This document shows, in pieces, positions 6,801 through 64,000 of a stretch of DNA of 64,000 nt. Below the pieces are notes generated by a model. It did no database searches. It was not told the origin of the DNA and saw only the letters and a list, made by a program, of their open reading frames with translations. Position numbers and translations under genes: made by a program. Within the stretch, counting starts at the first letter, position 1. Every line of letters starts with the position of its first letter. The DNA is from Cymbomonas tetramitiformis (Eukaryota; Chlorophyta; Pyramimonadophyceae; Pyramimonadales; Pyramimonadaceae): NCBI GenBank assembly GCA_001247695.2, contig LGRX02024739.1, positions 42,004-106,003 on the forward strand, written 5' to 3'.

Positions 6801-6817
6801 CATTACAGTTTCAGCAG

Positions 6818-7096: not shown

Positions 7097-7126
7097 AAGG
7101 ACACAGAGGATTTCTACATCATTGAC

Positions 7127-9839: not shown

Positions 9840-9881
9840 ACTGATTAGATAGTATTTTTCTCCTCGGGTGTTGTTGCAATG

Positions 9882-18780: not shown

Positions 18781-19062
18781 CCTCCTCCTCCTCCGGGACA
18801 CCCAAACAAATCGGGTGTCCGTTCACTTCCTGGTCACTTCAATTTGAGACTTGTTGCAAGTCGGGGCGGTGTATTACGCCTGCCACTTCAATATAGACTG
18901 TGTGCGTTGCAGTATAAGTATAAGGTATATTATATCGCACTTGTTACATCTTCACACTTGTGTTGTGATGCCCTGGCTTGTAATATTAGACCAAGGCTTG
19001 TAAGGAGCCAGCTTGCTCCATCCCGTTTCCTTTGGGCTTGTGGCGCTTGTAGTATCGTGAAC

Positions 19063-19866
19063 ATGGCGACGACTTCAGTGGCACCTGCGGAGGAATGCTG
19101 CGTTGAGTTGCAGTATTTTAGCTGCCGTGGACGAGGTGAACCGCTTCGCCTTATTTTGGAAGACAGCGGTACGGCGTATGTCAATAAGGTTGTGCGATGT
19201 GAGGAATGGCAAGAGCTTAAGCCTGATGCCATGCTTGGATCGCTTCCCGTTCTGCGGTGGAACGAAGCACAGGTTGCACAAACTGTTGCGATTGGTGGAT
19301 TTTTGGGGTTAAAGCTCGCAGAGAAGGGATACCTAGGCGACAACAGCCAAGACGCCCATCTAGCAACGAGTTTGTCGCTGACCGCTTGCGTGTACCAGGA
19401 ATTATTGAGCCCTTTGCTTGCCTTGTTGTGGGCTCCGATAAGATCGAAAAATGTTTTCCTAAGTACTGCCGCCCACGCGTATTACAGTAAGGTTTTGATG
19501 CTCATCCCTAAACTTCAGTCTCTTGTTGGCGAGAAACCGTTCCTCGTCTCAAACTCACCTTGCATTGCCGATTTCTTTTTGGCGGAGTGGCTGGACGTTC
19601 ACTGCAGCTTCTTCAAACTCTGCGGACGAGATCTGCCCACCAATCTCCAAGCAATACGCGACAGCATTTTCTCCCGGCCTCGTATCGTGACGTACCTCGC
19701 AAGAGACTCAGGGCGGCAATCTTTGCACAGATACAGTGAAGGAGAGTGTGCAGGTCAGCCTTTGTGTACGCTCTCACCAGCGGAAACGACGGTTCGTCGC
19801 TTTTTGGAGACATATCAGCATGACATAACCAACACGGATGTGAACAACGGACGTGCCGCGTTTTGA
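19063..19866 (+). CDS. Glutathione S-transferase-like protein (267 aa)
   Basis: The N-terminal thioredoxin-like domain opens with VELQYFSCRGRGEPLRL (residues about 12-28), the classic sigma/mu/alpha-type GST start with a Tyr followed by a RGR.EP.RL turn. The SLPVL cis-Pro region and a ..QT.AI..FL segment (normally QS.AI) follow, then an all-helical C-terminal domain from about residue 95. GSTs conjugate glutathione to electrophiles in the cytosol, or act as peroxidases or isomerases. The usual Ser after Gln in the glutathione-binding QS motif is Thr here. The open frame extends upstream to 18844, but the GST homology begins just after the ATG at 19063, so I chose that start. The length is somewhat above the usual 200-230 aa because of a C-terminal extension. 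There is no intron. A TATA-like stretch lies at 18911-18938. It is the only host gene on the plus strand. Confidence 0.82.
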   Translation: MATTSVAPAEECCVELQYFSCRGRGEPLRLILEDSGTAYVNKVVRCEEWQELKPDAMLGSLPVLRWNEAQVAQTVAIGGFLGLKLAEKGYLGDNSQDAHLATSLSLTACVYQELLSPLLALLWAPIRSKNVFLSTAAHAYYSKVLMLIPKLQSLVGEKPFLVSNSPCIADFFLAEWLDVHCSFFKLCGRDLPTNLQAIRDSIFSRPRIVTYLARDSGRQSLHRYSEGECAGQPLCTLSPAETTVRRFLETYQHDITNTDVNNGRAAF

Positions 19867-39071: not shown

Positions 39072-44454
<5,383 letters not shown>

Positions 44455-47400
44455 TTTTTCCATTTTTCTGCTGTTTGAATGAAAACAAAAACAACACAGC
44501 TACAGGACTCCGCAACAAAGAGAAAGTCTCCGATGTCGAAAAGGGACTTATCTTCGATGAACGAATATCCTTCAGCGTTCAGGCGGTGGCATCGAGTGGA
44601 AATTGTGCAAGTCGAAAGAGGAGAGACAGCCAAGCGATTGGAGCCGACAAGGGCTGAGGGGCGCGATTTTGCATTACGTGCACATGTCATCAATTTCCCT
44701 CAATTCCATTGGACAAGGATGGAACGATGCAACATGCAAGTATGCGAATGGGCTCAGACTGTGAGGCATTTTTGGTTTCAAGAGTGCATTGAACAAAAGA
44801 AGGATAAGTGTGCTGGGCTGCTGGCGTCTTCTGTCGCCACGTTTCTCGAATGTATATCGTGGCAAAATATATGCCCTTCGATCCCTGTTAAAGTTTGTAA
44901 GTGTATCATAACAAGATCCAAGCCGCTCAGTACAGAATAAGAGAATATGCCAAGGCACAAACGGAGCTCAACAATAGGGGGTGACACGTGAACGTGACAC
45001 AGGGGGGGGGGGAATTAATCTCCAAAGTGGTTGAGTGGTTGTTCGTTGTAGGAGTTCTGACTTCTGTGGCATTCGTATTGCATTGCATGGCATTGCGTTC
45101 TTCCCTTAGCTGTTGTGTCACCTTTTCCAACGTTTAATCGTCTCCGCATCTATGTTCGGATAAACGCGTTACGCGTAAATCTCAAAACGTCGGAAACAAG
45201 TGTTTACGCGTAAATTACGCGAGTCTTGATTTTAGCACGATTTTACGTGTACCACAAACCACACTGCAAGGGCGGCGGTACGTGGGACACAACGTAGTGC
45301 TAGGATTCAAGAGCGATATGCTAGGCGTGTGGTGCCTGAAAGGAGGAGCCCAGTCTGCGTGTGTTTGTACGGTCTCTAGGCGCGCCACGATTCGTCGTGC
45401 ACCGCCTATTCCTCTCACTTGTTAGGTACTCTTCCGTTACTTCCGTTAGGTTGACAGCATCACTGCACACTGCAACAAACGATCAAACGTAAGCTTACTA
45501 TCATGCACTTTAGGTGTACGCACCAGAGTGCCACAACTCTTCTTTGTTATTACATGTAAATAATTTTGCAGATAGTTGTAGATAGCATATTCGTAATTCC
45601 TTAGAATTTAATATAACATTGCAATGCACTAGCGTATGAATCAACTTGACTGTATTGGCTAGTGGCTGTTGTCCACCGCTCCACCTGACTTGTCTTTTCG
45701 GTGTTCCGCACTCGAGAGGAACTTGTCGTACTTCCATATGTTCTCGTATGCGAGGCACGTAGGGGGCCTAAGTTGTGTCTTGTGTGTAAGTTACGGCAAA
45801 TAAATACCGTAGATAAGCGTAATAAGAAATGTCAATATTATAGGGTTTATTGTACGATCATGTCCCGGTTGTACGGTAATGCTATTTCTACATAATGCAT
45901 TACGCGTAAATCTCAAAACCTTGGAAACATTAGTTATTATTTATTATAATACATTTACGTCGATGAGTAAGGCAAGGCCTTCGGAACGATCTACTGGAGT
46001 ATGTTCCCCTCAAACATAACTGTCTGCAAAGCAGGAAGCATTCCACTAAATATGGAAGCAGGAGGCGGCTCGGCACTAAGGAGACGTGTCGGCCACCAAG
46101 TCGGTCCGAAAAACATTAGCAGGTCACGGAGTTGATGCCTGGTGGGGATGGAGAAGTTAATAATTGTATTCAACCCCTAAAGGGCGGATGGAATTTCTTG
46201 CAAAAAACGGTGTTTTGGGGATTGTAGGCATTGTCGCGTATCGCGGACATCGATGTGCATTCACGTTATCAGGTATGCTGTGTATGACCACCATGTAACT
46301 TTCTGAGCGCCGTAACATGCATCCGTGCACCATATATATTCAGATTTTCGACATATCCAACCCAATTTTCATGATTTTGGGACATGTAAAATTTCTCCGA
46401 TCTCCTATTACAACTTATATTTCGACTTCGTTGGGTGACTATCGTCGTGAAAACTTGGGGATTGGTCACATGAACATATTCCCACCCGGTAGCGCACCTC
46501 TATACCGGCAAATATACCGACTATGAGCAAAAACGCCCCCCAAAACACCAAAAAAACACCCAAAAACACTTAATTGTAAATGTTTTCCATACTTAAGGAA
46601 TGATTTCCCATACTTAAGCGCAATTGAAGGCGATTGCTTCCTATTTGTGGGGATATATAGCATGTGTCATCCAAACAGCCATGGAGGGGACGCTAGTGGA
46701 CATTGGGCACGCGACATGCCTTCACAACTCCACCCAGTTGGGCGGGATCGTCGGGTGTAAGCCTTGATTTCGTCTATTTCATTAAGACAAAATTCAAGCT
46801 CTAAAAGGCAAGGCAAGAATTGTCGTAATTGAAAATGTTGCTATGTGAGATATATGTCCTTTATGGACTACCCATCCCAGTGATTAGTCATTTGCGACAT
46901 ACACACAGGTAGGTGCACGCGCCTTGGAATGCATATTGGACGGGTGATGACCCCTACGTTCTTCCAGGTGGCGGATGCTATAAGGATGACTTTTCGGATG
47001 TCGTTATCATAGTTATAGACAGTGCACCCAGTGATACTCAACCAGCCTTTTGTAACAAACGCCGGCTTCTCATGGTACCGCGCCGGGTTTGTTCAGCTGG
47101 TGACACGCATGACAGTGGTGACAGCATGACAGGCTTTACGAAGATGACCATCTGTGAGATACGGACTCGTCAGAGAAGATATAGTCACCATCAGGTGACC
47201 AGAGAATGATAAGACGAAGATGGCAGTGACTCCTTTGCCGCTGACGCGTCAGTCAGAATGCGGTAAACGGTAACATTGTTAGAGCTGGCATGGGATAATG
47301 ACTTTCCATTGGCCAGATGAAGATTTAGGGGCTAGAACCCGTTACAGTTTTGGGAAATGTGACAGGACATTGAGATATTAGTAGACTCTGACCGAAGGTC

Positions 47401-47689
47401 AAGCTAGTGGACTCATTATTGTTTTGCCTTCGCAAGTACTAGGTGGCTGTTCGCGTGCCAGTGCTAGAGTGCTAAGACAGTTCTGCTCACAGCTTTTGTA
47501 CACACAATAATTCGTATTTTGTGATATAATATCAATTTTGACGGATATATTTTACTGCTGTTTTCATACCTTTTCAAAACAATAATGTCCTGCGCGGAGC
47601 GGCTTTTTATTTCAGTGTTAATCCGGAAGTGAAGGCCCTTTGGCGAGAAGTTAGCAGCAGTTGAAAGAGCGGATTCGCAAGTCAGGCGA
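44455..47689. other. Intergenic region, no gene recognised
   Basis: It contains the presumed promoter of the DnaJ gene at its left end, without a clear TATA element. GCGTAAATCTCAAAAC occurs at about 45171 and 45905, each near a TTACGCG palindrome, so an old repeat is likely. The LTR of the large element to the right may lie between 47200 and 47690, but I could not define it. Confidence 0.45.
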
Positions 47690-48500
47690 CTCCAGGGGCA
47701 CCCACGGTGCACTGGCGGAACCTTTTTCTTCCCTGAGCTTGGTGGTACTTGCACTGGAAGAGCCTCCAGCAGCAGCGGCGACAGATCAGCTTTGAATTCA
47801 CTAGACATGAGCGGTTTCCTTCTGCACAGTGATATGCTCAACACCTCTGTCTTCAGCGAATCCAGGGGCACCCCTGGTGCACTGGCCTAGCTGCTGACAG
47901 GTGTCCTTCAGTTTTAAGCTAATCAGCACTGCATGAGCTTGGGCGGCGGCAGCGACAAAGTCAATCAGCAGTTAATGTACACCTGGATGAGCAGCTCTCA
48001 GTGGTTCTTTCAGCTGACCACCTTGCTTGAAGTGAATCCAGGGGCACCCATGGTGCACTGGCTTAACTGAAAGGCAGGTGTGTTTCACCTGAGAGCTAAT
48101 CAGCAGCGGCATCTGCCCTGTCTTACCGGCTAAGAGTGGATCAACAGCTGATGTGCACCTTGATGAACTATCTTCCAGTGAGCTCTCCAGCTGGCCACCT
48201 TGTCTGAAGTGAATCCAGGGACACCCCTGGTGTACTGGCTTAGCTGAAAGGCAGGTGTGCTTGGCCTGTGAGCTAATTAGCGGCGACATCTGCTTTTATT
48301 TACCAGTGAAGAAGTGGATCAGCAGTGAGTCACTGCTCTATGTCTGGAACTCCAACTTACGGTTTCTTTGGCAGCTCCACTTTGTCCGACGGTTAATCCA
48401 GGGACACCCCTGGTGTACTGGCCTAAGCCTGAAGCAGAGGAAGAGCTTGCTAGAGGACTGGCAGCTGCATCAACTCTGAAGGCGACAAATGAGTGGTCTA
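47690..48500 (+). repeat. Five degenerate ~175-bp direct repeats before ORF1
   Basis: The anchor TCCAGGGRCACCC..GGTGYACTGG occurs at about 47691, 47860, 48037, 48213 and 48398. Each anchor is nearly self-complementary (CCAGGGGCACC / GGTGCACTGG) and is preceded in most copies by GTGAA or GCGAA. The units lie in the leader of the large retrotransposon. Confidence 0.8.
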
Positions 48501-48601
48501 TTCCCTGGTGTGACACAGTGACCTTGTGGATTTAGAGTTAATTACGTTTCCAGCCTGGAGTGCTGCTCACTACTGGAGTGACCTTCTGCTGCCTTATCAC
48601 A

Positions 48602-51600
48602 ATGTGTTGGAGAATTCTTCTATCCTTTCTACAGTATTGGTCAGCCGAGCTCGAAGCTAAATTCTTGATGAAGGGCACCAAAGAGAAAGAAGATCTCTTG
48701 ATCGCCAAGCCGCAGACCAACGAGCAGGACGGTCTCGCCTACGTGAAGAGCTGTCGTCGCAGGGAGGCAGCTCTCAACACCGGCAGGAGGGTGGAGGACT
48801 CCGTCGTCAGGCAGAACATCGAGGAATGCATTAAGGGCCTGCGCATCAAAGAATACCGAGATCGCGTGTCCGAGCAGCTGCGCGTCAGTCATCCTGCCCC
48901 CAACAGGGTTACTTGGGAGGACCTCGAGGTGATTGTGGAGGTGCAGGACAAGCTCAAGAACGATGCAGAGGCTTGGGCCCTCACGCTGCAGCAGGAGCTG
49001 GTTCGCAGGCTCAACTGCGTGTACTCCTGCTTTGAGGCCAGGCAGATGGGGCTTGACCTGGCTGCACTGGTGTCAGCCATGAGGCGTTCGGGTTCTGCCT
49101 CCAAGACTGGGGACAGACGCCGGGACCCCAAGAAGAAGGAGCAAGCACAGCATGGTGGCGACGACGCCAAGAGACCTGCCAGGGAAGCGAACAATGCCGA
49201 GCGTCAGAAACCTTCTTACAGCAAGGTGCCACCACCTGATGCTTCGAAGAAGTTCCAGTGTGACTGGTGCTTCACGCGCCTGCCCCACTCTGCAGAGCGC
49301 TGCTACACGGGGTGTCGTGATGCTCGGGTGCCGCCCAACTTCCATAAGGACAGGCAGAACTCCAAGTGGCCGGACGAGGTCAAGAATGCCCAGATGCGCG
49401 CCTACAACATCACACACCGCTTTGATAAGCACAAGATGGGGATCACCACCAAGGAGTGGCTTAAGCTCCCGGAGGCCAAGCAGAAGCAACCACAGCAGCA
49501 GCAGCAGCAGCAGCAAGTGGCTGCCAGTGCCGAGGTTAAGGAGAAGCTCGCCGCAGAATTGTCAGGCCTCCAGGCAGGGTCACCTCCAAAGGATGACGAG
49601 ATCGCCGATGCGCAGGCCCTATCAGAGGCCAGTGATGCGGATACCGAGTACAACTCCAACTTCACCCAACAGGCAGAATACGAGGAGGATGAGCAGGACT
49701 GCCCTGCTGGGGGTGGTTTGGGAGGTGGTCATGGTGTTGACATCGATCACGCACCGAGTCTCCAGGCCAGCGCCGCTGTCGCCTTGGGCAACACTCAGCA
49801 GATGCGGGGCTTCCAGGTCAAGACGCCGGAGGAGTTCGACAGGGCCGCTCAGGTGCCTAGAGCCGTCCCTCCCGACTTACTCAGCAGGAAGGTCCACCTG
49901 TTGGCATCCAATCTTCGCAGCTCCGTGCGTGCCTGCTCGCAGATTGCTGCCATCCTGATATCCCAGAACGCCATTGATCTCCCGAAGGACATCGAGAATC
50001 TTGTGGCACTGGAGGAGCTCATGGGCAAGGATCCGAATGATGCAACCGAACAGCCCGCCGAGGTCAATGAGCATGAGTTGGAAGACACGCACGCCGCAGC
50101 GACGCAAGGAGCAAGAAGGGAAGCAGACGGTCCAGGACATCGTGCAACTGAGGAGGTGCCATTGGACGAGATGCCCAATGGGGTGGTCGACAGCGCCGCC
50201 GCTCGATGTGCAGCTGCTGCCTACGTGGACGATCTGGGGGTGGTTGACTTCAGTGACCATGGACATGTGCGAGCTGGTACCATCAAGACCTCCGCTTACG
50301 ACGCACTGAGGGCAAAGATGGCGCAGCATCTGACCGACGAGCAGGTGCTATTGATGGCTCAAGTTCAGCCCATCTGCAAGTTGCAGAATGCCACTCTATA
50401 TGAGGGGCTTGCGCTGGTGTCATCCGGTGGCGAGCTTATGCTGTACCGGGCAATCCTCATGGACACCGGCGCCAACTGTAACATCATCTCGATCTCTGTT
50501 GTGAGGCGGCTGGGTCTCACGATTTACGAAGCCACCACTGGCGCCAAGGTCACCAGATGTGACAACAGTCCCACAAAGTTCACCCATTATTGCTACGTGG
50601 ACGTCATTTTGGCAGCGGGCACGCCGCACATGACGCTTCACCGCTTGTATGCCTTCGTGACCTTCGAGGCCGAGAACTCGTGGGACCTGCTGATAGGTAC
50701 TGGGCCATTGAAGAACTCCCTGATGATTGATATCAAGCTTGGGAGTGGAGTGGCCGTATCACATGCGCCAACGATCCTGGGCACGAACGCCCAGGTGGTG
50801 CTTCCGCTGGTGGACATGACGCCACCCAAACGTCCTGACCTGCCCAGACGCGTGGACCCGGTGGTGTGTCTGCAGTCAGAGATTTTCGGACAGGGATTGG
50901 AGTGTGATTGGCTGAGGCACACGCCTCTGAGCACGAGCGAGGAGAGATTCGCGGCTTCGGGGATCCAGTGTGAGCACATTGATGACCATGCCGAGTCACC
51001 AGTGACGTCACAACCTCCTTCGCCGAGACCGCTTGCTGATCTCCCACGACATCGAGTCGCCACACAAGCAGAGATTCAGGAGCAATGTCGCCGTCAGACA
51101 TGCTCTCTTGAAGGCGGCCGACGTAGTAGCCTGCCGTCGCTGACGCCCGCCGTACAGGCAGCGTCGGAGCACATGCTCGAGCAGTTCTACAAGGAGCCGG
51201 ACCCTTGGAAAGGTGGGCACGCTAAGTGGGTCACCGACTGGACACGGAGTCCTTCTCGGGTAAATGCTGGGGACCATCCGTCTTTGGATACCCCGCTCGA
51301 TTATCACTGGGCGGACCAGAGGCTGTATCTAGACCGGCATCACGTCGCGCGCCTCTGTCGCATCCTCCAGAATCCCGCCCAGGACATGCCGAGCAGACCC
51401 TCTCGTGAGCATGTCTGCGTGGAGTTCGCCCGCTGCCTCGAACAGAAGTGGGTGACGATGCACCAGCTGATGACCCCGAACTGGCTGCATGTGGACCAAA
51501 AGCTGAAGCACGACGATCAGAAGAACTGCTGGGTGCTCGATGGCGACTACATGACGTATGTACCGTCCTCGGCCAGCAAGCAGGACGTCGCCAGGCCCCG

Positions 51601-53155
51601 GGAGAGCAGGTCGCAGTTAGACTACAACCCAATCCAGAGGCTGCAGAGCACGCTCCAGTCGTTGCTCAAGTACCCCAGTGGTGAAGTCACTGGCACCCTT
51701 ATGTGGGATTTGAGGAAGCGCGTCTTCTGTGTTCAGCCAAGCGCAGCCACACAGCAGCTCGATCTGCTGCATTGCACGTTGTCTCATGTACGCGTGTCCA
51801 ACCGTGAAGAGGTGCTGGACGAGCTCCAGCTCCCTCACTGGTACGAGAGTACGGGCGTCTGGACGTACCAGTTGCTCAGATACCTCTGCCCAGTGGACAT
51901 TGAGGCTCTCTCTGATGGCATACTCCGTCAATATGCTCGACATGGCGGCGAGAGACCGCCTCTGGAGCTCGTCTTCTCGGATTCCAGCACCAAGTACTAC
52001 CCAGTGGGGGATGGTCTTGGGGGGCCTGGCAGGGTGTTCTCCGAGAATGCTGCCGCCCAGGAGTACGTGCGCCTGGGGGAGATGCGGAAAATGCTCAAGT
52101 CGGTCGACACCAGGCGGCAGGGCCACGAGGCGCTCTATGCAGACGCAAAGCGCAGGCCGCCACCGCCCAACGACATGGCTCATTTACGGCTCACTAAGCG
52201 TGCCCCTGCGCGGCCACCTGTCCCTGCCGCTGTGGCGGGACCATCTCAGGCTGCCGCAGTACCGTCCCAGGCTGTAGCAGGCCCATCTCAGGCTGCCGCT
52301 GGCCCGTCTCGTGCCAGGTCCGCCAGTGACTCGCCGCCACGCTCGTCACGCGTCCGCGCCTTCCAAGCCCTCAAGCATGGGCCTACGCCATCGCCGGCAT
52401 CCAGCGACGGTGAGCCCGTGGACGATTCTCGTGCGTTGTCATCTCAATTCGTTTGCGCCGCTGCCGCTCGTCCTTCTCAAGGGGAATCACCCCCTGCATC
52501 GCCTGCTGTGAGCAACGATGGCACATGGGCCGACTCGATCCGGGTCCCGCGTGATGCCCGACCACGTTCCTCGGGAGGCGCGCCGTCTACGCCTCCGAGC
52601 CCGCCACGGGCGCGTCAGCTGTCTCAGTCCCCTACAAGGGCGCCTCCATCTCCGGCAGGGTCGGATTGGGATGCCGTGCAGATGGCCACCTCATCCGTCA
52701 GTTCGGTGGGCAGGTTTCTGACCGTGGCGGAGGTGAGCAACTTGAGGGAACGCCGCAACCTCACCGTCTTCATGGTGAAGTTTGCCGTGGCACATGCGAA
52801 CCGCTGCCGGGACCAGCGGATCGTGTATGAGCTTGGCGTGTGCAACCAGGAGCGAGGTCTCAGGCTGCGGGACTATCCGGGCATCACCAGCGCAGTCGCC
52901 AAGAAGCACAACAAGACCATCACTTGCGGGCAGCGGGGCTGGCGCCTCCCTCTTGGGGGACAGACGACGTCTGCCAATCTGTTGGAGGCCATCATGTCAG
53001 CCTATGCTGATCTGTCGCATCGTGGCTCAGGACACACGCGTGGCGTAGGTTATGCAAGGAACGTCGAGTTCTCGCTGTGCAAGTACGTGGAGCTTGGGTC
53101 GGCACACGTGCTGCGCTGCATGGCGCATCCAAACGCCACGCCGGTGCATTACATC
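48602..53155 (+). CDS. ORF1 (gag and protease) of the large retrotransposon, part 1
   Basis: I chose the ATG at 48602. The open frame reaches back to 48560 without an earlier ATG, and the ATG at 48668 is also possible. The N-terminus (about residues 20-230) is helical and charged, as in gag proteins. A zinc-knuckle-like CDWCFTRLPHSAERCYTGC lies at about 49258-49314, followed by a Gln run at 49487-49517 and an acidic region. The retropepsin motif ILMDTGANCNIIS is at about 50453-50491, with the later conserved WDLLIGTGPL segment at about 50680. The remaining 800 residues are unfamiliar, with Pro/Ser/Ala-rich stretches around 52200-52700. The frame is open up to the transposon at 53156. Joined at the ATC duplication with 59867-60427 it would encode about 1,704 aa. 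Confidence 0.75.
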
Positions 53156-53159
53156 CCCT

Positions 53160-54320
53160 ACAGATCTGCAACCCTTGGGAAAGCTTTCCATAGGCATGTC
53201 ATCCCTGTGCCCTCCCTATGCCCGCCCTTGGGAACGCTCGGGAAAATCCGGAAATATTTTCCAAAGGCTTGGAAAGTTTTCCATAGGGTATTTCCATAGG
53301 GATACCCCCTTTTGGAGTTTCCATAGGGTTTCTATAGGGCTGTATGCCTATGGAAAAGGACGTTCCATAGGCATGGAAGGCCGTATAATCACCCTATGGA
53401 AAAGTAAACATTTCCATAGGACGACTATAGGCATAACCAGGACTATGGAAAACCCTATGGAAAATGTAAACCCTTCCATAGGGCGGCTATAGGCATAGGG
53501 GGCCGATGGAAAGCCCTATGGAAAATATAACTTTCCCATACGCTTTCCATAGGCATGTCCAAGGGCGGGCGTAGGGCGGGCGTACGGATAGCGCACCTAT
53601 GGAAACTTAGCGTATACTATGAGTTTTCCACAAGGTTTTCCATAGGGCGGGCATAGCGATAGTACACCTATGGAAATGTACAATTCGCCCTGCGTATTCT
53701 CGGGAATAAAGTCGTAATTCCATAGGGCCTTCCATAGGGATGCCATAGGTATGGTAGGCCTATGGAAACGTATAATTCACTCTGCGTATTCTCGGGAATA
53801 TCAACGTAATTCCATAGGGCTTTCCATAGGGCCCCCATAGGGATAGTATACCTATGGAAATATACAATTCATTCTGCGTATTCTCGGTCAATAAAGACGT
53901 AATTCCATAGGGGTTTCCATAGGGTTAGCTATAGGGATAACACAGGGTGAGCATGCCGTAGGTATACTCCTGATACAGGTGGCAAAGTCGACACCTATAG
54001 TATCCATATGGAATACGTTTCCACACGTATACCGTACGTATGGAACCGAGTTCCATAGGTATAGCCAGCCTATGGAATGAGCTTTCCCAGGGGTGAGCCA
54101 CCCAGTGGAAGTGGAAAGGTCTTCCGTAGGTATATCATCCGTATGGAAACATGTTTCCCAAGGGATACCGTACCTGTGAAAGGGTTTCCATAGGTATAAC
54201 CTATCAGGTTTCATAGGGTGAGCATAGGGTGATGATTCATGATATATCCAGGCTTTCCATAGGGCTTTTACTACATATATACATATTAATATACAGAATA
54301 ATTCCATCTATGAAATGAAC
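53160..54320. repeat. Left subterminal TTTCCATAGG array
   Basis: Dozens of copies of TTTCCATAGG and its complement, in both orientations, with a common longer context CATAGGG. In CACTA elements such motifs bind the TNPA protein. Matching arrays lie at 55540-55880, 56310-56830 and 58615-59860. Confidence 0.85.
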
Positions 54321-54323
54321 AAG

Positions 54324-56256
54324 TTATTCGTCATGTAAGTCGCCCACAAAATCTACATGCCTATCTAGTATGAGCATCATCTTGTCTTTATCATATCTCC
54401 ATGGTGGATCATTGAAACCGAGTTTGTGCTCGCCGAGATAATATACCAACCTATTTGCATCGGGTCGTCCAGCTGGAATTCTCTTGGTCGTGATGAACCG
54501 GTCAAAGTTCCATGGAATGGGTACAATGCACACCAAGCACTCAATCTCAAATGCTTGGATGAAAACCTCGGAAAGGTCCCATGGCAAGTCCGACCTCAAC
54601 ATCATATTGTTCGCCACGGTATCTTGAAATGCTGCCTTCAATGGAAACCATCTTACTTTGAGGAAAACAAATTGTTTCCTGCCAATCGGGATGCTATAAC
54701 TTTTCAGAAGCTCGCCGTACCTGCAACACATACTTTCCAAAGGGTGAGCATAGGGTGGGCACAGGGTGGACATAGGGCGGCTATAGGGTGGGCATAGGGT
54801 CAACATAGGATGCAAGGCAATTGTGAATTGGGCATAGGGTGAGCATAGGGTGGACATAGGGTGATCATAGGGATGTTATAGCGTGGACATAGGGTGATCA
54901 TAGGGATGTTATATGGTGGGCATAGGGTGAGCATGTGGGAGGGATACACTTACGATGAAACGTAGTCACAACCGGCAGATCGTCGTTCTCCGCGGGTGTA
55001 GTTATCTTCCATGATACCAAGAGCTCGGCCATCTCTGGTATCAAATATAGCATCGGCAGGAGTTCGTCCAAGCGCCAAAACCTAAATACCTTGTACGGCT
55101 TTCCCGGAATAAGCCGTCCGTTACGTCGAGAGCTGGGGTGACACCGAAGTTTGTGGCAATGGAGGCACTGGGTAAGGTCGTCATGCCGGCCCGGAGTGAA
55201 GATCATGCATTCATTCCTGCAAACGTCGGCGGTATGGTACGGCAAGGCAAAATCCTTCCACATAGACAAAGCTTGTTTGAAGGAGGTCGGGAAACCATTT
55301 CGTCTCTGATTGCCGATGATGTCAACGTTGCCAATCACCGTTTGCCGCATGAGATTGAAGATTTGATCAAACATGGATTGGGTAGCATTGTGCTCGGATT
55401 TCGTTTCCAGCAGATCAATGACAAGACGATGCATTGTTGAAACCTTCTCGGCATAGACGTGATCAACGACCTGTGAAATCACGAGAGGCATCCCCAACTT
55501 TACAGGAACTGCAAAATAAAAAAAGGCATTTCCCTCCGCATGTCCACCCTATGCCCGTCCTATGCCCACCCTATGCCGACCCTATGGAAACATCCAATGC
55601 TTTCCATAGGCATGCCTACCCAGTGAACCACCTATACCCGCCCTTGGGAATGCACAGGCCCACCCTATGGAAACATTCCATGTTTTCCCAACCTATGCCC
55701 GCCCAATGCTCGCCCTATGCCCACCCACTGGAAACGTCCAATGCTTTCCATAGGCATACTTACCCAGCGCCCTACTTATACCCGCCTCTGGGAATGCCTG
55801 TTCCCACCCTATGGAAACGTTCAACGATTTCCCAACCTATGCCCACCTGTTGGCATACGTACGCCCACCCTTGGGAAATACGGAAAGAGGGGTACCTCTT
55901 GGTTATCCATATCCTCATCGTTGGCAGCAGGACTTAGGAGACGGGCACAATGTTCTTCCAGCTTTCTCAAATGATCCTGGAGAATTTCGTCCGCTTCTGC
56001 ATTGGCATCTTCCATGTCATCATCACCTCCAAGGGAACCACCATCACCACCATTACGGTCACCCCCGTCATCACTTGAAGTATCGTCTTCACTACTACTT
56101 TCCCCCATGTATACCGCTCCTTGCCATCTCTTGTATAGCTTCGTATGTCGTTGTATCGTTCGAAGAGGTTTTTCAACTTGTAGTCGGCACACGGTGCAAG
56201 GACATGGTGGCATGTCGACCCCGTGGTTGTTTAATACTGGCCCACAACACACCATC
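54324..56256 (-). pseudogene. TNPD-type CACTA transposase, core missing
   Basis: Three coding blocks on the minus strand. The first (ATG at about 56256 to about 55880) has MPPCPCTVC, then a T...H...Y..W pattern like the N-terminal zinc-binding segment of CACTA transposases, and an acidic Ser/Asp tract. The second (54954-55508) has FDQIFNLMRQTV...FPTSFKQA...CRNECMIF and CLHC..LR, the region preceding the catalytic core. It ends at a clean donor (C|GTAAGTG). The third (54324-54720, acceptor TTGCAG) has YGELLKSY...FLKVRWF...DLPWDLSEVFIQAFEIECLV, resembling the C-terminal domain. Only 230 bp of CATAGGG repeats separate the second and third blocks, so the catalytic core is absent. A functional protein is not expected. 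Confidence 0.65.
54721..54953. repeat. CATAGGGTG(A/G)(A/G)CATAGGG repeat between transposase blocks
   Basis: About 17 copies of CATAGGGTGGACATAGGG-type 9-10-bp units in one orientation, occupying the place of the missing transposase core. Confidence 0.85.
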
Positions 56257-57774
56257 CATACCAGCACGCATGACTACTTGGAACCGTTGCTTCCTTTTTA
56301 ACTTTTCATTTGCTAGGCATAGGGTGATCATGAGGTGGGCGTAGGGTGGGCGTAGGGTGGGCATAGGCATGGAAACAATACGATGTGTTCCATAGGGCGG
56401 TCCGCCCAATGACATCCCTATGGAAGGTGTTCAATACCTTCCATACCATGAACGTAGGGTGGACATAGGGTGGACATACGTTAGGAATGCTGTATTCTGG
56501 TTCCATAGGGATGCCCACCCTATACAACCTATGGGAAAATAACTTGAACTTTCCATAGGGATATTGGGTTGATATTCTATGAACGGTCGAGGTGTTAACC
56601 CTATAATAGTGGCGTCCGTAGGGCTGGAAATAATTACACAGGGATGGAAAAACCCTATGTAAAACCTATGGGAACGCATTTCCATTGGCTTTCCATAGGG
56701 CAAAAACCTTTCCATAGGGCACTTTTAAATCCCCTATCTGAAAATCGTATGGAATGGCTCTGGAAAATTTGCCACAAGCCCCAATGGAAATCGTTTCCAC
56801 CGGGTGATCATAGGTTGGCTCACCCCATTTTCGGGATTCCATAGGTAATTTATAGGGATGGAATTAAAAAAATGAAAAATAGGGCAGGGTAAAACAGGCC
56901 CTTTTTGGACCCTACAACAGCAACACGCCGCACTTGGAAAATGCCTATGGAAAATGCAGAATTACACTGTTAAGGAATGCCACAGAGATCATCCCTATGA
57001 TTGTGGCGTCCATACCTGTGGAATGGCCTGGAAACAGGTTAAAAAACATCACCAATGTACCCTATGGAAAATCCGGAGCCTGTGGGAAAAGTGGTGTGCC
57101 CTATGGGAAATCCAGAGCCTATCCCTATGGAAACCCCTATGGAAGACCCCCTACCGCCGCCAAAAACCCCCCAAATAAAATGAGCTTGTTCGATCACCCC
57201 CAAGAAAACAAACCATTTGTTCACTGACGAGGGGGGCAAAAAAACAAAATTGCGGCCTGTATGCGCTGTTTTGGCTAGTCGAGATTTTATTTCTGGAACT
57301 TCAAAAAAAAATCGGGATCTCGTAGGTTCGATTGAGACTGAGAACGACGGCCACCTCTAGACCATTACGAAGGGTTGATTACATTTAATCCCAGTTTAAA
57401 TTTTATAAGTCGATTATCTCCGATGCAATGTCACTGAGAGTGCAGAGTCTGATGAGACATCGCATCGTCATCATCGTCGTCATCGTCGATCGTGCTCGCA
57501 TGACGAGTCGATCCGATGTGACTTCTGAACGGCAAAGTTTTTGAGCACTTCGATTTTTCTGAACGGTCAAGTTCAAACTCACGTTATTGCACTCTTCACA
57601 GTTCGCCGTCAGCAATGTTGCAGCAGCCTCGCCAGTGAGTTGCGTGCTGTGATATTTTTAATTCTCACAGGTTGCAATATGGCACTGGTTTGCAGTGCAT
57701 GTTTTGGTTATGCGTGTGTATTATTTTGTGTGTGCTTCGCGCGCTCATACTTGGCATGCGTGAAACTTTGACTA

Positions 57775-57841
57775 GGAGTGAACGGGAAATTCCCGCGAGT
57801 CCTTTGCACTCGAAATAGTTGGTTCAAATCCAACTCACTCC
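57775..57841 (+). tRNA. tRNA-like cloverleaf (anticodon position TTT, Lys?)
   Basis: The 67 nt fold as follows: acceptor GGAGTGA/TCACTCC (7 perfect pairs), D-arm CGGG-AAATT-CCCG, anticodon stem CGAGT/ACTCG with the seven-base loop CCTTTGC, variable AAATA, T-arm GTTGG-TTCAAAT-CCAAC. GGTTCAAATCC fits the pol III B box. The D-loop is too short, the A box is missing and position 33 is C, not T. It may therefore be a degenerate, organelle-type or pseudo-tRNA. It lies inside the CACTA-like element. Confidence 0.45.
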
Positions 57842-58028
57842 ACATCCCCCTTTTACTTTCCTTTGCTTCTTTCGTTGACGACTGCTATTTTCTTTCTTCT
57901 TTACTAAACGTTAGTTGGTTGGTTTCGTTTTTCAGATCCGCTGAAAACGTTCGCGTGGCGAAGTCATATTAGGTTTTCATCTCGCGTTCATATTCGCATT
58001 TATTTGAGGTTGCTCGGTTGTTAATTAT

Positions 58029-58338
58029 GTTTTCAATAAAGGTTTATTTTGTGCGTTTCCGCTTTTTACTAAGTGTTGGCTCTTTACTTTCCTTTTCAGA
58101 TTGGCTGTTTTCGAGGAGGGCGAAATGGAGGAAATCGACCGCCTCGAGTACAACGTCAACTTCAAGCATCCCTTCAAACATTCTAGGTTGATAAGTCCTT
58201 TATGTTTTCAATAGAATATTCTTTTGTGCGTTTTCGCTTTTTTACTAAGTGTTGGCTCTTTACTTTCCATTTTAGATCGGTTGTTTTGGAGCGAAGCGAG
58301 ATGGGGAAAATCGACGGCCTCGAGTACAACGTCAACGT
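58029..58338 (+). repeat. ~174-bp tandem duplication with intron/exon-like units
   Basis: Two units share TTTTCAATA, ACTAAGTGTTGGCTCTTTAC, a pyrimidine tract ending in AG, and an exon-like segment with CGCCTCGAGTACAACGTCAA. The first unit has ATGGAGGAAATCGACCGCCT, the second ATGGGGAAAATCGACGGCCT. Each looks like an intron 3' end followed by a short coding piece. Confidence 0.6.
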
Positions 58339-58614
58339 TTAGGTTGGCATCTTGTAAATAGAAAGAGCACGAGAAGAACATTCTTTTGCGTATTGTAAAT
58401 AGAAAGTGCACGAGTAGAACATAATTTTGTGTATTCGTTGGTATGATAAAATTTGATAGTCCCATTCGTATTCCTTTCTGCCTAGCTAGATACATGTTAA
58501 TCGTAGTAAAGATGCTCGAGTATTTTGTTTATCTCGCATAGTGGAAACATAGTGAACACACTCCATGTTGCTAATGTGCAATATGTATGCTACACAGTCA
58601 GTGCTACACGTACA

Positions 58615-59860
58615 GTATCCCTATACTTGCCCCACTATTGTGCCTATGGAAAGTAAATATTAATTAAGTTCCATACGTATAGCATCCCGATATTATCCCT
58701 ATATCGTGCCTATGGAAACCATATATATCTACTGGTTCCATACCTATACTATGCCTATAGTAAATAGTTTCCATACGGATAACATACGTAGGGAAAGATG
58801 TTTTCCATACCTATAATATACGGTTTTCATACGCATGGTATCCCTGGGGAAAAAGCTTTCCGTAGGTATAGTACACCTGTGGAAAATGCTCTCCATAAGT
58901 ATAATAACCGTATGGAATATGAATTCCATAGGGCGGGTCACCCTACGGAAAGCGTTTCCATAGGTATACTCCTGATGCTGTTAACGGAATCATACGTATA
59001 ATATCCGTATGGAATACCTTTCCATAAGTATACAGCACGTATGGAATTGTGTTTCCATAGGTATAGCCATCCTATGGAATAATCTTTCCCAAAGGTGAGC
59101 CACCCAGTGGAAAACCTTTCCATAAGTATGTCGGCCGTATGGAAACCTATTTCCCAAGGGACGCTAAGTGTATGGGCCCGTCTTCCGTAGGCATAATGTC
59201 CGTATGGAAAGATCTTTCCCAGGGGATACCATACCTGTGGAAAATGTTCCATAGGTATATCGACCGTATGGAAGATTGCTTCCCAAGGGATACCATGCCT
59301 ATGGAATTCGCTTCCATAGGTACACCGTCCGTATGGAAACAGGTTTCCCAAGGGGTACCATGCCTGGGGAAAAGATTTCCATAGGTATGACCTATTAGGT
59401 TCCATAGGGCCAGCATAGGGTGATCATAGGGATGGAACATATCCGTGTGTTTTTCCACAGGGTTTTCCATACGGCTTTCCATAGGAATGCTATAGGGATG
59501 ACATAGGTACGGAAAACGCTTGATATTCCAGGACTTTCCATTGGGTTTCCATAGGGTTTTCCATACGATATTTTCCATACGATTCCTTCCATCCCTATGG
59601 AAAACGTTCCATAGGTATGGACGCCACAATCATCCCTATGGAATGCCTTGGAAAACCCTATGGAAAGCACAATCACCCTATGGAATGCCCTGGAAAATAA
59701 TGAAAACCTTCCCAAGGGTGAGTATAGGGATGGAAACTCAAAATTTTTGTTTTCGAGATAACCTCCAGTATCCATTTTCCCTTTTCCATAGGGCTTTTCC
59801 ATAGGGTTTTCACCCGTTTCCATGCCTATGGAAAGCTTTCCCAAGGGTTGCAGATCTGTA
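58615..59860. repeat. Right subterminal TTTCCATAGG array
   Basis: The counterpart of 53160-54320, with the motif in both orientations up to the terminal inverted repeat. The spacing of about 20-45 bp between opposed copies gives many potential hairpins. Confidence 0.85.
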
Positions 59861-59863
59861 GGG

Positions 59864-60427
59864 ATCTTCATGGATGATCAGCGGTGTCTGTCTTGGCGTA
59901 CGGAGTTCACAAACGATTACCTTGTGCAGGACGACCGGAAGTTCATATGCATGCAGTGGGGTTACGCAGAATCGGCCGCGCCATGGTTGCAGTCGGCCCT
60001 GCGCGTCTTGGAGGCGCGCCTTCTCCCGCCACAGCCGCCCAACCGTGAGGCTCGTGTGGCCGTGAGGCCGGAGCACGTGGATACGAGCTGGGCAAGGAAT
60101 GTGGACGAGGTTCGCGACCCCCCTGCACGTCGTCAATGGCCGCCTTCCCCCGGGACGTTCGAGCATCAGCCGATCGTAGGTGGTGCTGCGCGTTCGCCTG
60201 CTCCTTCCGTTGACCGCCATGGGGCTGCTACCCATGTCGTCCCCGCGCCGAGAACGTCCAGGATGCCGGCCAGCCACGCCTCACAGCGTCCTCCTTCTCC
60301 AGCTGGCTCGAATTGGAGTGAGGCTACGCAAGCGTTTCAGCACTACACAGACGAGCAGCGTGAGGCGCAGCGACGGCAAGCGCATTTTCAACAGGGCTCC
60401 CCGGGCACAGCGGGCGGGCAGCCCTGA
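59864..60427 (+). CDS. ORF1 of the large retrotransposon, part 2 (C-terminus)
   Basis: After the ATC duplication the ORF1 frame continues (IFMDDQRCLSWRTEF) in the same phase as at 53153, through a Pro-rich region to TGA at 60425-60427. The TGA overlaps the ATG of ORF2. No domain is recognised in this part. Confidence 0.7.
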   Translation: MFMDDQRCLSWRTEFTNDYLVQDDRKFICMQWGYAESAAPWLQSALRVLEARLLPPQPPNREARVAVRPEHVDTSWARNVDEVRDPPARRQWPPSPGTFEHQPIVGGAARSPAPSVDRHGAATHVVPAPRTSRMPASHASQRPPSPAGSNWSEATQAFQHYTDEQREAQRRQAHFQQGSPGTAGGQP

Positions 60428-62670
60428 TGCACAACCGGCGCTGTGGCCGTGGGCTGCCTGCACGGGCAGTCCACTTGCGGCCGGAGGTCCTGCGAGCGTG
60501 TATCTCGCTTGCGGGCAGTGCAGTGATTTGGTGGTGGTTGGTACGAGGTACCGTGCCCATGGTCGCCGTCTGGGCGATGTGGGAAGCAATATCGTGGCAC
60601 TTGGCATGGTGCCCTTTTCGCATTTGGTGGGGGCGCTGTGTGGCCTCACTTTTGAGCTGGCTGCCAATGTGGTGGTCGGCTGCTCGACGTTATCCCCGTC
60701 GTGCGTACTATAACGTTTGGGTCTTATGGGCCCTCGCCTGCATTTGGTACGTTGGGTTGCTTGTCGTGCGCACCGCGGGCATCTATGCTGGCGTGCACCG
60801 TGTTCATGCCGAAGGATGGATGGTCGTGCCCCTACGGGCTGTGGTCATTCCCTTGACGTGTTGGTCGCAGTGTGCAGCCGCCCTCCTGATCGCAATCCTT
60901 GCTTGGCTTTGGGTTTGTGCCAGCGTCTTCGCGGAGGATGTGGCGTGCCATGCCCCTCATGTCCCAAGCGACCCTTTGGACACGCATCACATTCGACGTG
61001 GCCGTGGGTGGGCTGTTCCGTCCCTACGTTGGTCTCAAGTTTTCTTGTTGGGCCGCGTGCGTCTGCCCGCTTTGCCGGCCAGGTTGGACAAACCTCGCTT
61101 TGCGGCGCGCTGGGCGCAGCTTCGGCGCAATCTTCGACTTCATTGCATCGCGCAGGCCACCTACGTGGCACTGGTCCTTGCGGTCGTGGTCTTCACCGCC
61201 GCTGGTGGGAGTACTCGCTTGGCGCACGGGGGGTGGAGAGTATTGGCGTGCTTCTTCGCTTCGAACTCGCCAGCAGCCGCAGTGCGTTTCAACAGAATTT
61301 TACGATTTTTTCTGCTTTTGTGCGGAATTTTGTGGGTCGCTGGCAAGCTGGCTGAGAGCGTGCCCATGTGCGATGCCATGTCGCCCACGCGCAGTGCTTG
61401 GGGTGAATCCCCCTGCACTTCATGGGAGGCCCAGCAGTCCTCGAGGCAATGGGAGCCGGGCTGGGAAGCCAACATCGCGGAGCAGGATGAGGTCTTGCCG
61501 TACACCGTGCTGGACGAGCTTCAACCTTTGGGTGACACGACAGTGACCAAGGACGAGGCAGCGTGGCTCGACACTGAGCTCAATGCCACGTTTGGAGGAC
61601 ATCCTGACTTCAAGGAGGAACACTGGGAGGAAATGCGGAATGTTCTTCGCAGGTGCAAGACCACCTTTGCCAACAGCCCTCACGATCTGAAAGGCTACAA
61701 GGGCAAAGCGAAGCACAACACGTTCTCCATCCCTTTCGTAGACGAATCCAAGGCCGCCTACCAGAGACCTAGGAAGTACAGTCCGGGCGAGCAGGAGATC
61801 ATCGATATCCATTGCAAGGAACTTTTGGAGTATGGTTTCATAGAGCCAGCAGCCAAGCATTGCAGGCATGCGAGCAACGTGGTCGTAGCTGGCAAGAAGG
61901 ATCACGAGACTGGCCTGTGGACTCAGACGAGGTTCTGCGTGGACCTCAGGGGTGTCAATCGGCACTCCCTCAAAGACAACACGCTGCCGCACCGACCAGA
62001 GGAGCTCTACCAGAAGGTGGCCAAAGCCAAGTTCAAGACCACTCTGGATGCCACCAAAGCTTTCCACCAGATTCCCATGGCTACGGAAGAGGACAGGAGC
62101 AAGACGGCGTTTTGGTGGAAGAATCAGCTGTACCAATACACCTCGATGCCTTTTGGTGCAGCTGGAGCTACTTCTGCGTTCGTAAGAATCATGGACTACG
62201 AGTTACGGCACTTGCAGCATTGCACGGTGGCGTACGTCGATGACGTAGTGGTCTATACGGATTCCACGCCTGAGCAGCATTTGAAGGACGTTGAGGATGT
62301 ACTTCGCACCTTGGGGGATGCTGGCATCCGTTTGCATGCAGGCAAGAGCACTTTTGGTGCAGCCACGGTGGACTTTCTGGGCTATCGTATTGGCCACAAC
62401 TCCATTGGCGCGCAAGAAGCCAAATGCAAGGCCATACAAGAACTTCCAAGCCCTCAGGACAAGACTGGGCTCCGCTCGATCTTGGGTATGATGAACTACT
62501 ACAAGGGCCTGGTGGGTGAGCCAGGGGGGCCAAACTACTCTGAGATGGCCCGCCCTCTCAACGACTTGCTCAAGAAGGAGGTCACTGACATCAAGGCAGC
62601 CTGGGGGAAGCAGCAAGATCAAGCACTCCAAGAACTTAAGGATGCCCTCTGTTCTGGGCCAGGTGCCTGA
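60427..62670 (+). CDS. ORF2: hydrophobic region plus reverse transcriptase
   Basis: The ATG overlaps the ORF1 stop (TGATG). Residues 1-320 are very hydrophobic and Trp-rich, with about five membrane-length stretches (about 25-60, 95-118, 135-172, 240-262, 292-312). From about residue 400 it is a Ty3/gypsy-like reverse transcriptase: ...FCVDLRGVN (about 505), DATKAFHQIP (about 540), MPFGAAGA (about 573), the intact catalytic box AYVDDVVVY (about 601), and LGYRIG...LRSILGMMNYYKGLV. It copies the element RNA into DNA. The frame stops at 62670 just before RNase H. Two extra bases in GGGCCAGGTGCCTGAGGCC, compared with an expected ...PVLRP... junction, explain the shift. Confidence 0.83.
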   Translation: MHNRRCGRGLPARAVHLRPEVLRACISLAGSAVIWWWLVRGTVPMVAVWAMWEAISWHLAWCPFRIWWGRCVASLLSWLPMWWSAARRYPRRAYYNVWVLWALACIWYVGLLVVRTAGIYAGVHRVHAEGWMVVPLRAVVIPLTCWSQCAAALLIAILAWLWVCASVFAEDVACHAPHVPSDPLDTHHIRRGRGWAVPSLRWSQVFLLGRVRLPALPARLDKPRFAARWAQLRRNLRLHCIAQATYVALVLAVVVFTAAGGSTRLAHGGWRVLACFFASNSPAAAVRFNRILRFFLLLCGILWVAGKLAESVPMCDAMSPTRSAWGESPCTSWEAQQSSRQWEPGWEANIAEQDEVLPYTVLDELQPLGDTTVTKDEAAWLDTELNATFGGHPDFKEEHWEEMRNVLRRCKTTFANSPHDLKGYKGKAKHNTFSIPFVDESKAAYQRPRKYSPGEQEIIDIHCKELLEYGFIEPAAKHCRHASNVVVAGKKDHETGLWTQTRFCVDLRGVNRHSLKDNTLPHRPEELYQKVAKAKFKTTLDATKAFHQIPMATEEDRSKTAFWWKNQLYQYTSMPFGAAGATSAFVRIMDYELRHLQHCTVAYVDDVVVYTDSTPEQHLKDVEDVLRTLGDAGIRLHAGKSTFGAATVDFLGYRIGHNSIGAQEAKCKAIQELPSPQDKTGLRSILGMMNYYKGLVGEPGGPNYSEMARPLNDLLKKEVTDIKAAWGKQQDQALQELKDALCSGPGA

Positions 62671-63190
62671 GGCCCATCGATTACGACAGACCTCTCATAT
62701 TGTACACTGACTGGAGCACCTATGGCATTGGCGCAGTGCTGGGCCAGAAGGACGATGACGGGAAGGAGTACATTTGTATGGCAATCAGCCGATCTCTGAG
62801 TAAAACGGAGAGACAGTACGCCAGCTTCAAAGGTGAGATGCTCGCAGTGGTGTGGGCAGTGCGCACGTTGAGGCAGTACTTGCATGGAGTCCACTTCACC
62901 TTGGTGACTGACCACTCACCGCTCACCACCCTGATGGAGAAGGCCGATCTCCAAGGGCAACATCTACGCTGGGCAATCAGCTTGCAGGAGTTCGACTTCA
63001 CGGTGCAGTACCGTCCAGGAGCTAAGAACAGCAACGCTGACGTGCCGTCTCGCTACCCACTGCCGTCCACGACAGATGAGACTGGAGCAAGGCATGAGAG
63101 GGAGAAGGTGACTGCGTTTCACGCAGGCGTGGGGGAAGTTCACACGAAGGACTTCTGTGACCACTTGTGCCTTATGTTGGCTGGGGATGC
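62640..63190 (+). CDS. RNase H of the large retrotransposon (shifted frame)
   Basis: In the frame containing the ATG at 62700, the protein shows RPLILYTDWSTYGIGAVL, S.TERQYASFKGEMLAVVWA, LVTDHSPLT and the closing YRPGAKNSNADVPSR. These are the catalytic Asp-Glu-Asp regions of the gypsy-type RNase H, which removes RNA from the hybrid. It is out of frame with the reverse transcriptase (shift near 62660) and with the methyltransferase (shift near 63180-63190). The two shifts cancel, so reverse transcriptase and methyltransferase are in the same frame. Confidence 0.82.
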
Positions 63191-64000
63191 TTCCCCAGGG
63201 GAAGATAGAGGCCACGCCAGAGGTGCAGGTTGCCAACTACTGCAGGATGGCTGCCATGGAGCAGCTGGGTACAGGACCAGTGCATCGTCTGTTCGATTTG
63301 CACTACCACGAGGAATTAGAATGCAATCATGGGGACATGTTCGACACCGACTTGCCCGAGCTGGTGACCGACTCTGGGAGGCTAGCCAGAGCAGCTTGGA
63401 AGGCGCTGAGCCTGGTTAGGCCAACGCGAGGCACGCATGGCGAGGGAAGCCCCGCTGTGTACAGCAATGAGTACTTTGAAGGTGAGCGCATCCTGAAGCC
63501 CGAGAAGGTCGACACCAGGGTGCTGAGCAGCCGATTCTTCTCGCAAGCTCGGCAGGAAGGCGTGGTGTGCTACGAACCATGTGGAGGCCTATGTGCAGGG
63601 CTGGAAATGTTGCTCCGCAGTGGGATGAAGGTGGATCGCTACCTGTATCAGGACATATCCCCGAGCAGTCAGACGGTTGCCAGAGCCAGGTGTGCGGCAT
63701 TGCTGAGACGATACCCTGACCTCATCTCGCCCCATGCAATAGAGCTTGGGGCTTTACCACAAGATCTGCGCGAGACCACCAGCGCCGACTTCATACGAGC
63801 AGGAGCTCTTCAAGGATGCCAGTGGGTCATGGTATGTGGGTTCCCATGTCAGGATCTCTCCCCTGCTGGAACACTCACAGGCCTGGATGGCAGGCACAGC
63901 AAATTATTTTATGAAGTGGTCAGGCTTCTGTCCACACTCCAGCAGCTGCTGCGGCAGAGGCCTCCAGGTTATATCCTGGAAAATGTTTCTCCGTTGTCGC
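63187..64000 (+). CDS. C5-cytosine DNA methyltransferase domain (runs off the window)
   Basis: The frame is open from 63187 (ATG, with possible upstream continuation) to the last base without a stop. After about 100 unfamiliar residues come the methyltransferase motifs: motif I-like YEPCGGLCAGLEMLL (about 63571-63615), a motif II-like LYQDISPSSQTVARAR, the catalytic motif IV CGFPCQDLSPAG (about 63837-63872) with the active Cys, and motif VI-like YILENVSPL (about 63970-63996). The enzyme would transfer methyl groups from S-adenosylmethionine to cytosine in DNA. The target-recognition region and motifs VIII-X lie beyond the window. Position directly downstream of RNase H, in the element's own frame, indicates it is part of the retrotransposon rather than a neighbouring host gene. 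Confidence 0.85.
   Translation, partial: MLPQGKIEATPEVQVANYCRMAAMEQLGTGPVHRLFDLHYHEELECNHGDMFDTDLPELVTDSGRLARAAWKALSLVRPTRGTHGEGSPAVYSNEYFEGERILKPEKVDTRVLSSRFFSQARQEGVVCYEPCGGLCAGLEMLLRSGMKVDRYLYQDISPSSQTVARARCAALLRRYPDLISPHAIELGALPQDLRETTSADFIRAGALQGCQWVMVCGFPCQDLSPAGTLTGLDGRHSKLFYEVVRLLSTLQQLLRQRPPGYILENVSPLS

Follow-up and report, generated by a model that had tools for sequence, protein, structure and literature searches.

A damaged, 3'-truncated member of a high-copy Ty3/gypsy-type family with a C5-methyltransferase in pol in the alga Cymbomonas tetramitiformis

Organization of the locus

The window is the whole 64,000-nucleotide stretch of DNA that was analyzed, from the marine prasinophyte Cymbomonas tetramitiformis (Chlorophyta, Pyramimonadales). 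The feature under study, located on the forward strand, is the 3'-truncated end of a retroelement copy that has suffered damage and belongs to a Ty3/gypsy-type family with many copies. Window base 64000 coincides with the end of the contig (base 106003), so the 3' limit of the feature is not a biological boundary.

The element begins with repeat A1 (47051..47577, +), which starts with TGTAACAAACGCC and ends with TTTTCA. It shows 91-92% identity to both A repeats (A1 and A2) of copy C19542, as well as to A2 of copy C25704. A1 is followed by the 5' leader region (47578..48647, +), which lies within a 98% match to joined coordinates 336-1932 of C18021, a long copy of the same subfamily. The match to C18021 runs from the start of A1 at 47051 onward, with 98% nucleotide identity across A1 and the leader (47051-48647). 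Directly after the leader, C18021 has approximately 1.4 kb of sequence that the window copy lacks.

The first part of the gag-protease open reading frame (ORF) occupies 48644..53155 (+) and has 82.8% nucleotide identity to C18021. Over the best stretch, its product is 42% identical in amino acids to ORF1 of copy C1905, and it contains an aspartyl-protease-like stretch whose E-value of 0.029 does not reach the Pfam cut-off. The frame is interrupted by a nested DNA transposon of 6708 bp, foreign to the retroelement (53156..59863, no strand assigned), which is bounded by perfect 43-bp terminal inverted repeats and a 3-bp duplication, ATC. Dense internal repeats of the ttccatagg type are found within this transposon, and a Pfam search with its ORF at 54898-55548 (-) gave no match. 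The gag frame ends in 59864..60427 (+), as placed by blastn to C18021 and the ORF list.

The pol frame (60364..62667, +) was assigned from the ORF list and Pfam and is composed of an N-terminal region, for which hydrophobic stretches were computed in two relatives, and the reverse transcriptase (RT; PF00078, E 5.8e-23). RNase H (PF17917, E 1.1e-33; 62640..63230, +) is encoded in a different frame from RT and is 99.5% identical to database protein P0006 over 182 amino acids. The last feature is a linker and C5 DNA methyltransferase (DNMT; 63112..64000, +) that is cut off by the end of the contig. From the gag end through pol (59864-64000), nucleotide identity to C18021 is 90%.

RT at 61000-62658 uses frame 1, RNase H at 62661-63230 uses frame 3, and the DNMT at 63133-63999 uses frame 1 again, so the window copy does not have a single pol frame. 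With a 6.7-kb transposon in gag and two frame changes in pol, this copy is damaged in both genes. Assembly error may account for part of the damage to the frames.

The DNMT frame (63112-63999, +) is open for 296 codons up to the end of the sequence and matches PF00145 (DNA_methylase) with an E-value of 4.5e-9 over residues 239-295. Its conserved stretches are CYEPCGGLCAGLE, GFPCQDLSPAG, and LENV, which are motifs I, IV, and VI, and the contig stops after the last of these. The preliminary description, which had reported a C5-methyltransferase frame downstream of RT and RNase H, was correct in this respect. It had placed the start at 63187; that position falls in the linker, ahead of a catalytic domain that begins at ~63544 by alignment to a long paralogue. 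Over 264 residues, the frame is 99% identical to P0006. This identity, together with 150 scored genomic places at 98-100% identity, excludes chance as the source of the frame.

Other features are present elsewhere in the window. A second gypsy-type element at 5332-10597 has a gag match (PF03732), weak protease and RT matches, and a chromodomain-like end recognized by eye only. An open frame at 18781-19866 encodes a glutathione S-transferase C-terminal domain (PF14497, E 9.3e-6). Long minisatellite-like arrays, open in several frames, are found at 22741-23985, 27074-28786, and 39962-41618.

Copies, domain order, and relatives

The genome searched totals 851.7 Mb. At least 150 places in it, the window copy included, match 189 residues of the window DNMT at 98-100% identity (150 of 2615 candidates were scored). 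Counted by eye, 42 of these 150 places lie within open frames of 2412-2415 codons. Allelic or redundant contigs may account for some of the 150. Searched with Pfam, the genome yields at least 124 C5-methyltransferase matches (123 of 6837 candidates were scored), with host-type genes among them.

Long copies of the family are ~15.5 kb. The pol ORF of C18021 has 2414 codons and encodes, in order, a hydrophobic region, RT, RNase H, DNMT, a zinc/DDE integrase, a PHD finger, and a C-terminal domain. The second subfamily, which includes C24634 and others, has the identical domain order in 2398 codons. A stop or intron separating the methyltransferase from the element had been named as a finding that would speak against capture, and none breaks the 2414 open codons of C18021. 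The integrase that had been sought past the DNMT is present in this same copy.

Members have the components of a Ty3/gypsy element, namely a YXDD RT, RNase H, H2C2 zinc domain, and DDE integrase in order after gag-protease, with the DNMT inserted. Protease matches are weak, with E-values of 0.006-0.04 that do not reach the Pfam cut-off. The H2C2 domain passes its cut-off, and the rve match of 29.7 bits is slightly under the cut-off of 32.6. The integrase residues D, D, and E are conserved in 60, 59, and 60 of 60 rows, respectively, and the PHD ligands in 57-58 of 58 rows.

Sixty-six database relatives were gathered using the DNMT region as the query, so the presence of a DNMT in them is by construction. 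An integrase follows the DNMT in 60 of the 66, and the other six have no integrase match. The PHD finger is located behind the integrase in 57 of the 66, the rest having no match there. The organisms named among these relatives are Cymbomonas (CYMTET_43249, 98%, and many further CYMTET entries) and Haematococcus lacustris, and the other entries come from the sources eukprot, jgi, ena, lgn, and ncbi; Klebsormidium is named in none of them. Because the integrase follows the DNMT, both in C18021 and in these 60 relatives, the methyltransferase has its place behind RNase H and ahead of the integrase, which it does not replace. The preliminary claim that it takes the place of the integrase is thus incorrect.

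The pol ORF starts with ~340 residues that contain 3-5 hydrophobic stretches of 19 residues before RT (L017, 1085-2224; C18021 ORF2, residues 1-400). This region has no Pfam match and is fast evolving, with a dN/dS of 0.33. The arrangement of gag and pol differs between copies. In C1905 (L011/L012/L031), the two ORFs are in different frames and overlap by 85 nt, while in C18021 (L119/L120) they share a frame and are separated by a stop. Possibly, the two subfamilies produce Gag-Pol in two modes, or one of the copies has decayed.

The methyltransferase is DNMT3-like

A profile of the element METHYLTRANSFERASE (DNMT), built from 15 relatives, matches DNMT3A (E 6.7e-14), DRM2 (~6e-8), and HhaI (7e-6). 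DNMT1 is absent among the 50 profile matches listed at E <= 0.01. The AlphaFold2 model of the domain has a mean pLDDT of 90.3. When this model was compared with the PDB, the best 50 of 164 matches (E <= 0.001) were all DNMT3 entries. By profile and by modeled fold, the element enzyme is DNMT3-like.

The motifs are found in the unrearranged order I-IV-VI-VIII-IX-X, and motif VIII has the AHRxRxxWxN form of the DNMT3 family. The catalytic Cys of motif IV is present in 61 of 67 rows (four gaps and two other residues), the Glu of ENV in 64 of 67, and both Arg residues of motif VIII in 65 of 67. In many relatives, the residue ahead of the motif IV Cys is E or S and not P. Between subgroups, dN/dS is 0.021 for RT, 0.057 for DNMT, and 0.054 for integrase (21 pairs each). 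The value for DNMT is read as selection that keeps the enzyme working.

The preliminary description had proposed a C5-methyltransferase tree. The tree has 89 rows. Alignment A2 contributes 9 of its 15 element rows, 74 of the 80 viral loci and 5 of the 6 host loci with a match are included, and DNMT3A is represented by three fragments joined together; viral and host rows of less than 180 residues were dropped. The element enzymes form one firm clade (100/99). The position of this clade as sister to DNMT3A (89/48) is weak, with long branches and an unsettled bootstrap.

An alternative origin for the DNMT is capture from a viral C5-methyltransferase instead of a host DNMT3. The family profile scores enzymes of viral contigs at up to 63 bits, no lower than DNMT3A (54.8 bits), and one of these viral enzymes, L097 (IMGVR_UViG_3300033994_001593), also has DNMT3-like motifs VIII-X (ARPRAFWTNI, EGLFGFP, ALGNSWS). 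The tree argues the other way, if weakly, by setting the element clade beside DNMT3A. A viral source is considered unlikely, and L097 is a possible lead on the origins of DNMT3.

End repeats and insertion

The order of the end repeats is A1-interior-B1-GC-A2-B2. This order is observed at both ends of C1905, C1237, C24244, C20827, and C19542 and at the 3' end only of C25704. In these six copies, the arrangement A-interior-B-GC-A-B takes the place of the two identical, complete direct LTRs of a standard Ty3/gypsy element. In the subfamily to which the window copy belongs, the A2|B2 junction is found at 355 genomic places with <=2 mismatches, and a reversed control gave 0.

The ends of the element are TGT...ACA. 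Target duplications of 4 bp (CCCT, TGCT, and AGCG) flank three of the five copies that have both ends, and identical 4-mers in three of five copies have a chance probability of 6e-7 at 1/256 each. In the three copies with duplications, A1 and A2 are 98.7-99.5% identical. The two copies without a duplication are C1237, in which A1 and A2 are 94.5% identical, and C20827, in which A1 is interrupted. A purine-rich tract, CTACAGATGGGGG or ATACAGATGGGGG, is conserved directly before B1 in six of six copies.

This repeat anatomy and the purine-rich tract before B1 are the basis of a permuted-circle model. The LTR of reverse transcription would be B-GC-A, bounded by TG...CA, with a length of ~610 nt in one subfamily and 740 in the other. 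The inserted form would then be a two-LTR circle that was cut open within one of its LTRs, at the ACAGCTGT palindrome, with loss of the GC. The repeats pose the question of how a DDE integrase inserts an element with repeats like those of recombinase elements.

PHD finger and C-terminal domain

The domain after the PHD finger is predicted to adopt a class I methyltransferase fold. In a plain Foldseek search, diverse methyltransferases top the list, with query-normalized TM-scores of 0.34-0.46. A PDB profile search with the domain gave five weak matches, none of them a methyltransferase, and the likeness came from fold comparison only. The amino-methyltransferase motifs sought were I (D-P-F-x-G-x-G type) and IV, (S/D/N)PP(Y/F/W), and some members of the family carry degenerate C-terminal motifs. 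Relatives P0016-P0018, P0022, P0024, and P0026 have lost them and retain the DNMT, integrase, and PHD finger. Among viral contigs, 71 pattern matches to the C-terminal domain were obtained and 0 were confirmed as relatives. The dN/dS of the PHD and C-terminal region is ~0.05, 0.10, and 0.05 in three pairs.

Proposed mechanism and alternatives

The best explanation as a whole unites the domain architecture, pre-methylation of cDNA, roles for the PHD finger and C-terminal domain, and a circular intermediate, and is considered reasonably probable. The methyltransferase would share a polyprotein with RT and integrase and would methylate the CpG sites of freshly made double-stranded cDNA, either ahead of insertion or during it. 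New copies would then arrive with a host-like or silent mark already in place. The PHD finger behind the integrase may help to choose or read target chromatin. The C-terminal domain may place a second methyl mark, of the amino type, on either DNA or RNA, or may retain only a binding role. A two-LTR circle would open at the palindrome within one LTR, which would give the observed repeat order. Pre-methylation by the element of its own cDNA is suggested by the architecture: because RT, DNMT, and integrase are parts of a single protein, the simplest use of the DNMT would be access to new cDNA or to the insertion site.

The element may be described more boldly as a circularly permuted LTR element. 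Here, reverse transcription would produce B-GC-A LTRs, a DDE integrase would insert the two-LTR circle at the LTR palindrome, and two enzymes in a PHD-bearing pol would write C5-cytosine and amino marks. This fuller description is put forward as speculative.

The preliminary description had suggested that an element able to methylate DNA could hide its own copies from the host or mark its targets. The footprint of self-methylation in CpG is weak. CpG depletion is mild, at 0.70-0.76 in ORF2 of 10 copies. Among seven near-identical copies, CpG transitions are ~1.8-fold more frequent than other C>T changes (41/845 vs. 92/3313, p 0.004), and T>C/A>G changes occur at about the same rate as CpG transitions (125/3011). 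The second gypsy-type element of the window, at 5332-10597, has a CpG observed/expected ratio of 0.534, lower than that of the DNMT elements. The footprint is not specific, since this other element is more CpG-depleted.

The methyltransferase may instead act on RNA, such as element RNA or the primer tRNA, or serve as a nucleic-acid-binding module and not as a DNA marker. The substrate of DNMT3 enzymes is DNA. The C5 domain of the element is DNMT3-like by fold and profile with a nearly invariant Cys, Glu, and Arg pair, which counts against an RNA or binding role and makes it a doubtful reading. An enzyme that chiefly changes host chromatin or the host methylome, and not the cDNA of the element itself, would fit with copies in the hundreds and a PHD reader in the same protein. 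The embedding of the DNMT between RNase H and integrase would favor the cDNA or the insertion site as the target, and a chiefly host-directed enzyme is judged improbable. Finally, a DIRS-type tyrosine-recombinase element like SymbioDIRS-Dnmt3 would explain both a DNMT after RNase H and the A-B-A-B repeats, as the order A-interior-B-A-B is that described for DIRS and methyltransferases occur in DIRS elements in the accessible text of PMC5890265. This identity is rejected as very improbable. What follows the DNMT is an H2C2 zinc domain with a DDE core (rve) whose D, D, and E are near-invariant, tyrosine recombinase (PF00589) has no match either in pol or in those parts of ORF1 that were scanned, and the 4-bp target duplications count against it.

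Published retrotransposons with a host-type silencing enzyme come from very few lineages. In a sequenced alga, the present family has hundreds of copies, many long open frames, and a DNMT and integrase under similar constraint. Haematococcus and further database relatives retain the same domain order. This abundance, constraint, and shared order make the purpose of the enzyme testable using young copies, methylomes, and isolated domains.

Comparison with known systems

As the preliminary description had proposed, the element is of the Ty3/gypsy type with a C5-methyltransferase in pol, and comparable retrotransposons have been published from some algae. The accessible part of PMC12344493 likewise states that certain DNMT3s lie within streptophyte and dinoflagellate retrotransposons. 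In Cymbomonas itself, Burns et al. (2015) reported three scaffolds, covered >10,000-fold, that are homologous to a chromodomain peptide, to RNase H, and to a cytosine DNA methyltransferase (PMC5741210, accessible text). These high-coverage scaffolds may represent the same or a related family. The main text of PMC10675990 mentions chromoviral gypsy elements and holds no word starting with "methyl". The accessible literature that was searched contains no description of an RT-RNase H-DNMT-integrase-PHD-C-terminal architecture.

Chromoviruses are Ty3/gypsy elements with a chromodomain behind the integrase. They share with the Cymbomonas element the order RT-RNase H-integrase and a histone-reader module after the integrase. 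In contrast, the Cymbomonas reader is a PHD finger, a DNMT is located between RNase H and integrase, and the repeats are split.

SymbioLINE-Dnmt is likewise a retrotransposon bearing a C5-methyltransferase, but it is a LINE with an orphan class of DNMT in its own ORF upstream of the RT ORF (PMC5890265, as far as its text was accessible). DIRS elements with a Dam-like adenine methyltransferase also combine a retroelement with an amino-type methyltransferase (PMC5890265, same text). Likened by description, they differ from the Cymbomonas element, in which the predicted amino-type domain forms the C-terminal end of a Gypsy pol that also has a C5 enzyme. SymbioDIRS-Dnmt3 of Symbiodinium resembles the Cymbomonas element in its DNMT3-type enzyme in the RT frame, its A-B-A-B repeats, and its many copies. 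Its tyrosine recombinase is encoded in a separate ORF, whereas the Cymbomonas element has a DDE integrase in the pol frame. According to the same text, SymbioDIRS-Dnmt3 enzymes carry out de novo CpG methylation in yeast assays (PMC5890265).

The nearest published relative found, compared by description, is KnitGypsy-Dnmt3 of Klebsormidium nitens. Both elements have a DNMT3-type C5-methyltransferase within a Gypsy pol frame, DIRS-like repeats in the order A-coding-B-A-B, and a DNMT under purifying selection (PMC5890265, accessible text). A yeast assay of KnitGypsy-Dnmt3 detected no activity, which its authors judged inconclusive (PMC5890265). The lineages differ, as Cymbomonas belongs to the Chlorophyta and Klebsormidium is a charophyte. 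K. nitens has fewer DNMT elements by the account in PMC5890265, compared with hundreds in Cymbomonas. The term "PHD" is absent from the main text of PMC5890265. Unlike KnitGypsy-Dnmt3 as described in that text, the Cymbomonas element possesses, after the integrase, a PHD finger and a domain predicted to be a second methyltransferase. Beyond the DNMT captures known from a few other algae, the additions of the Cymbomonas family are this PHD finger, the predicted second domain, and the unusual arrangement of the end repeats.
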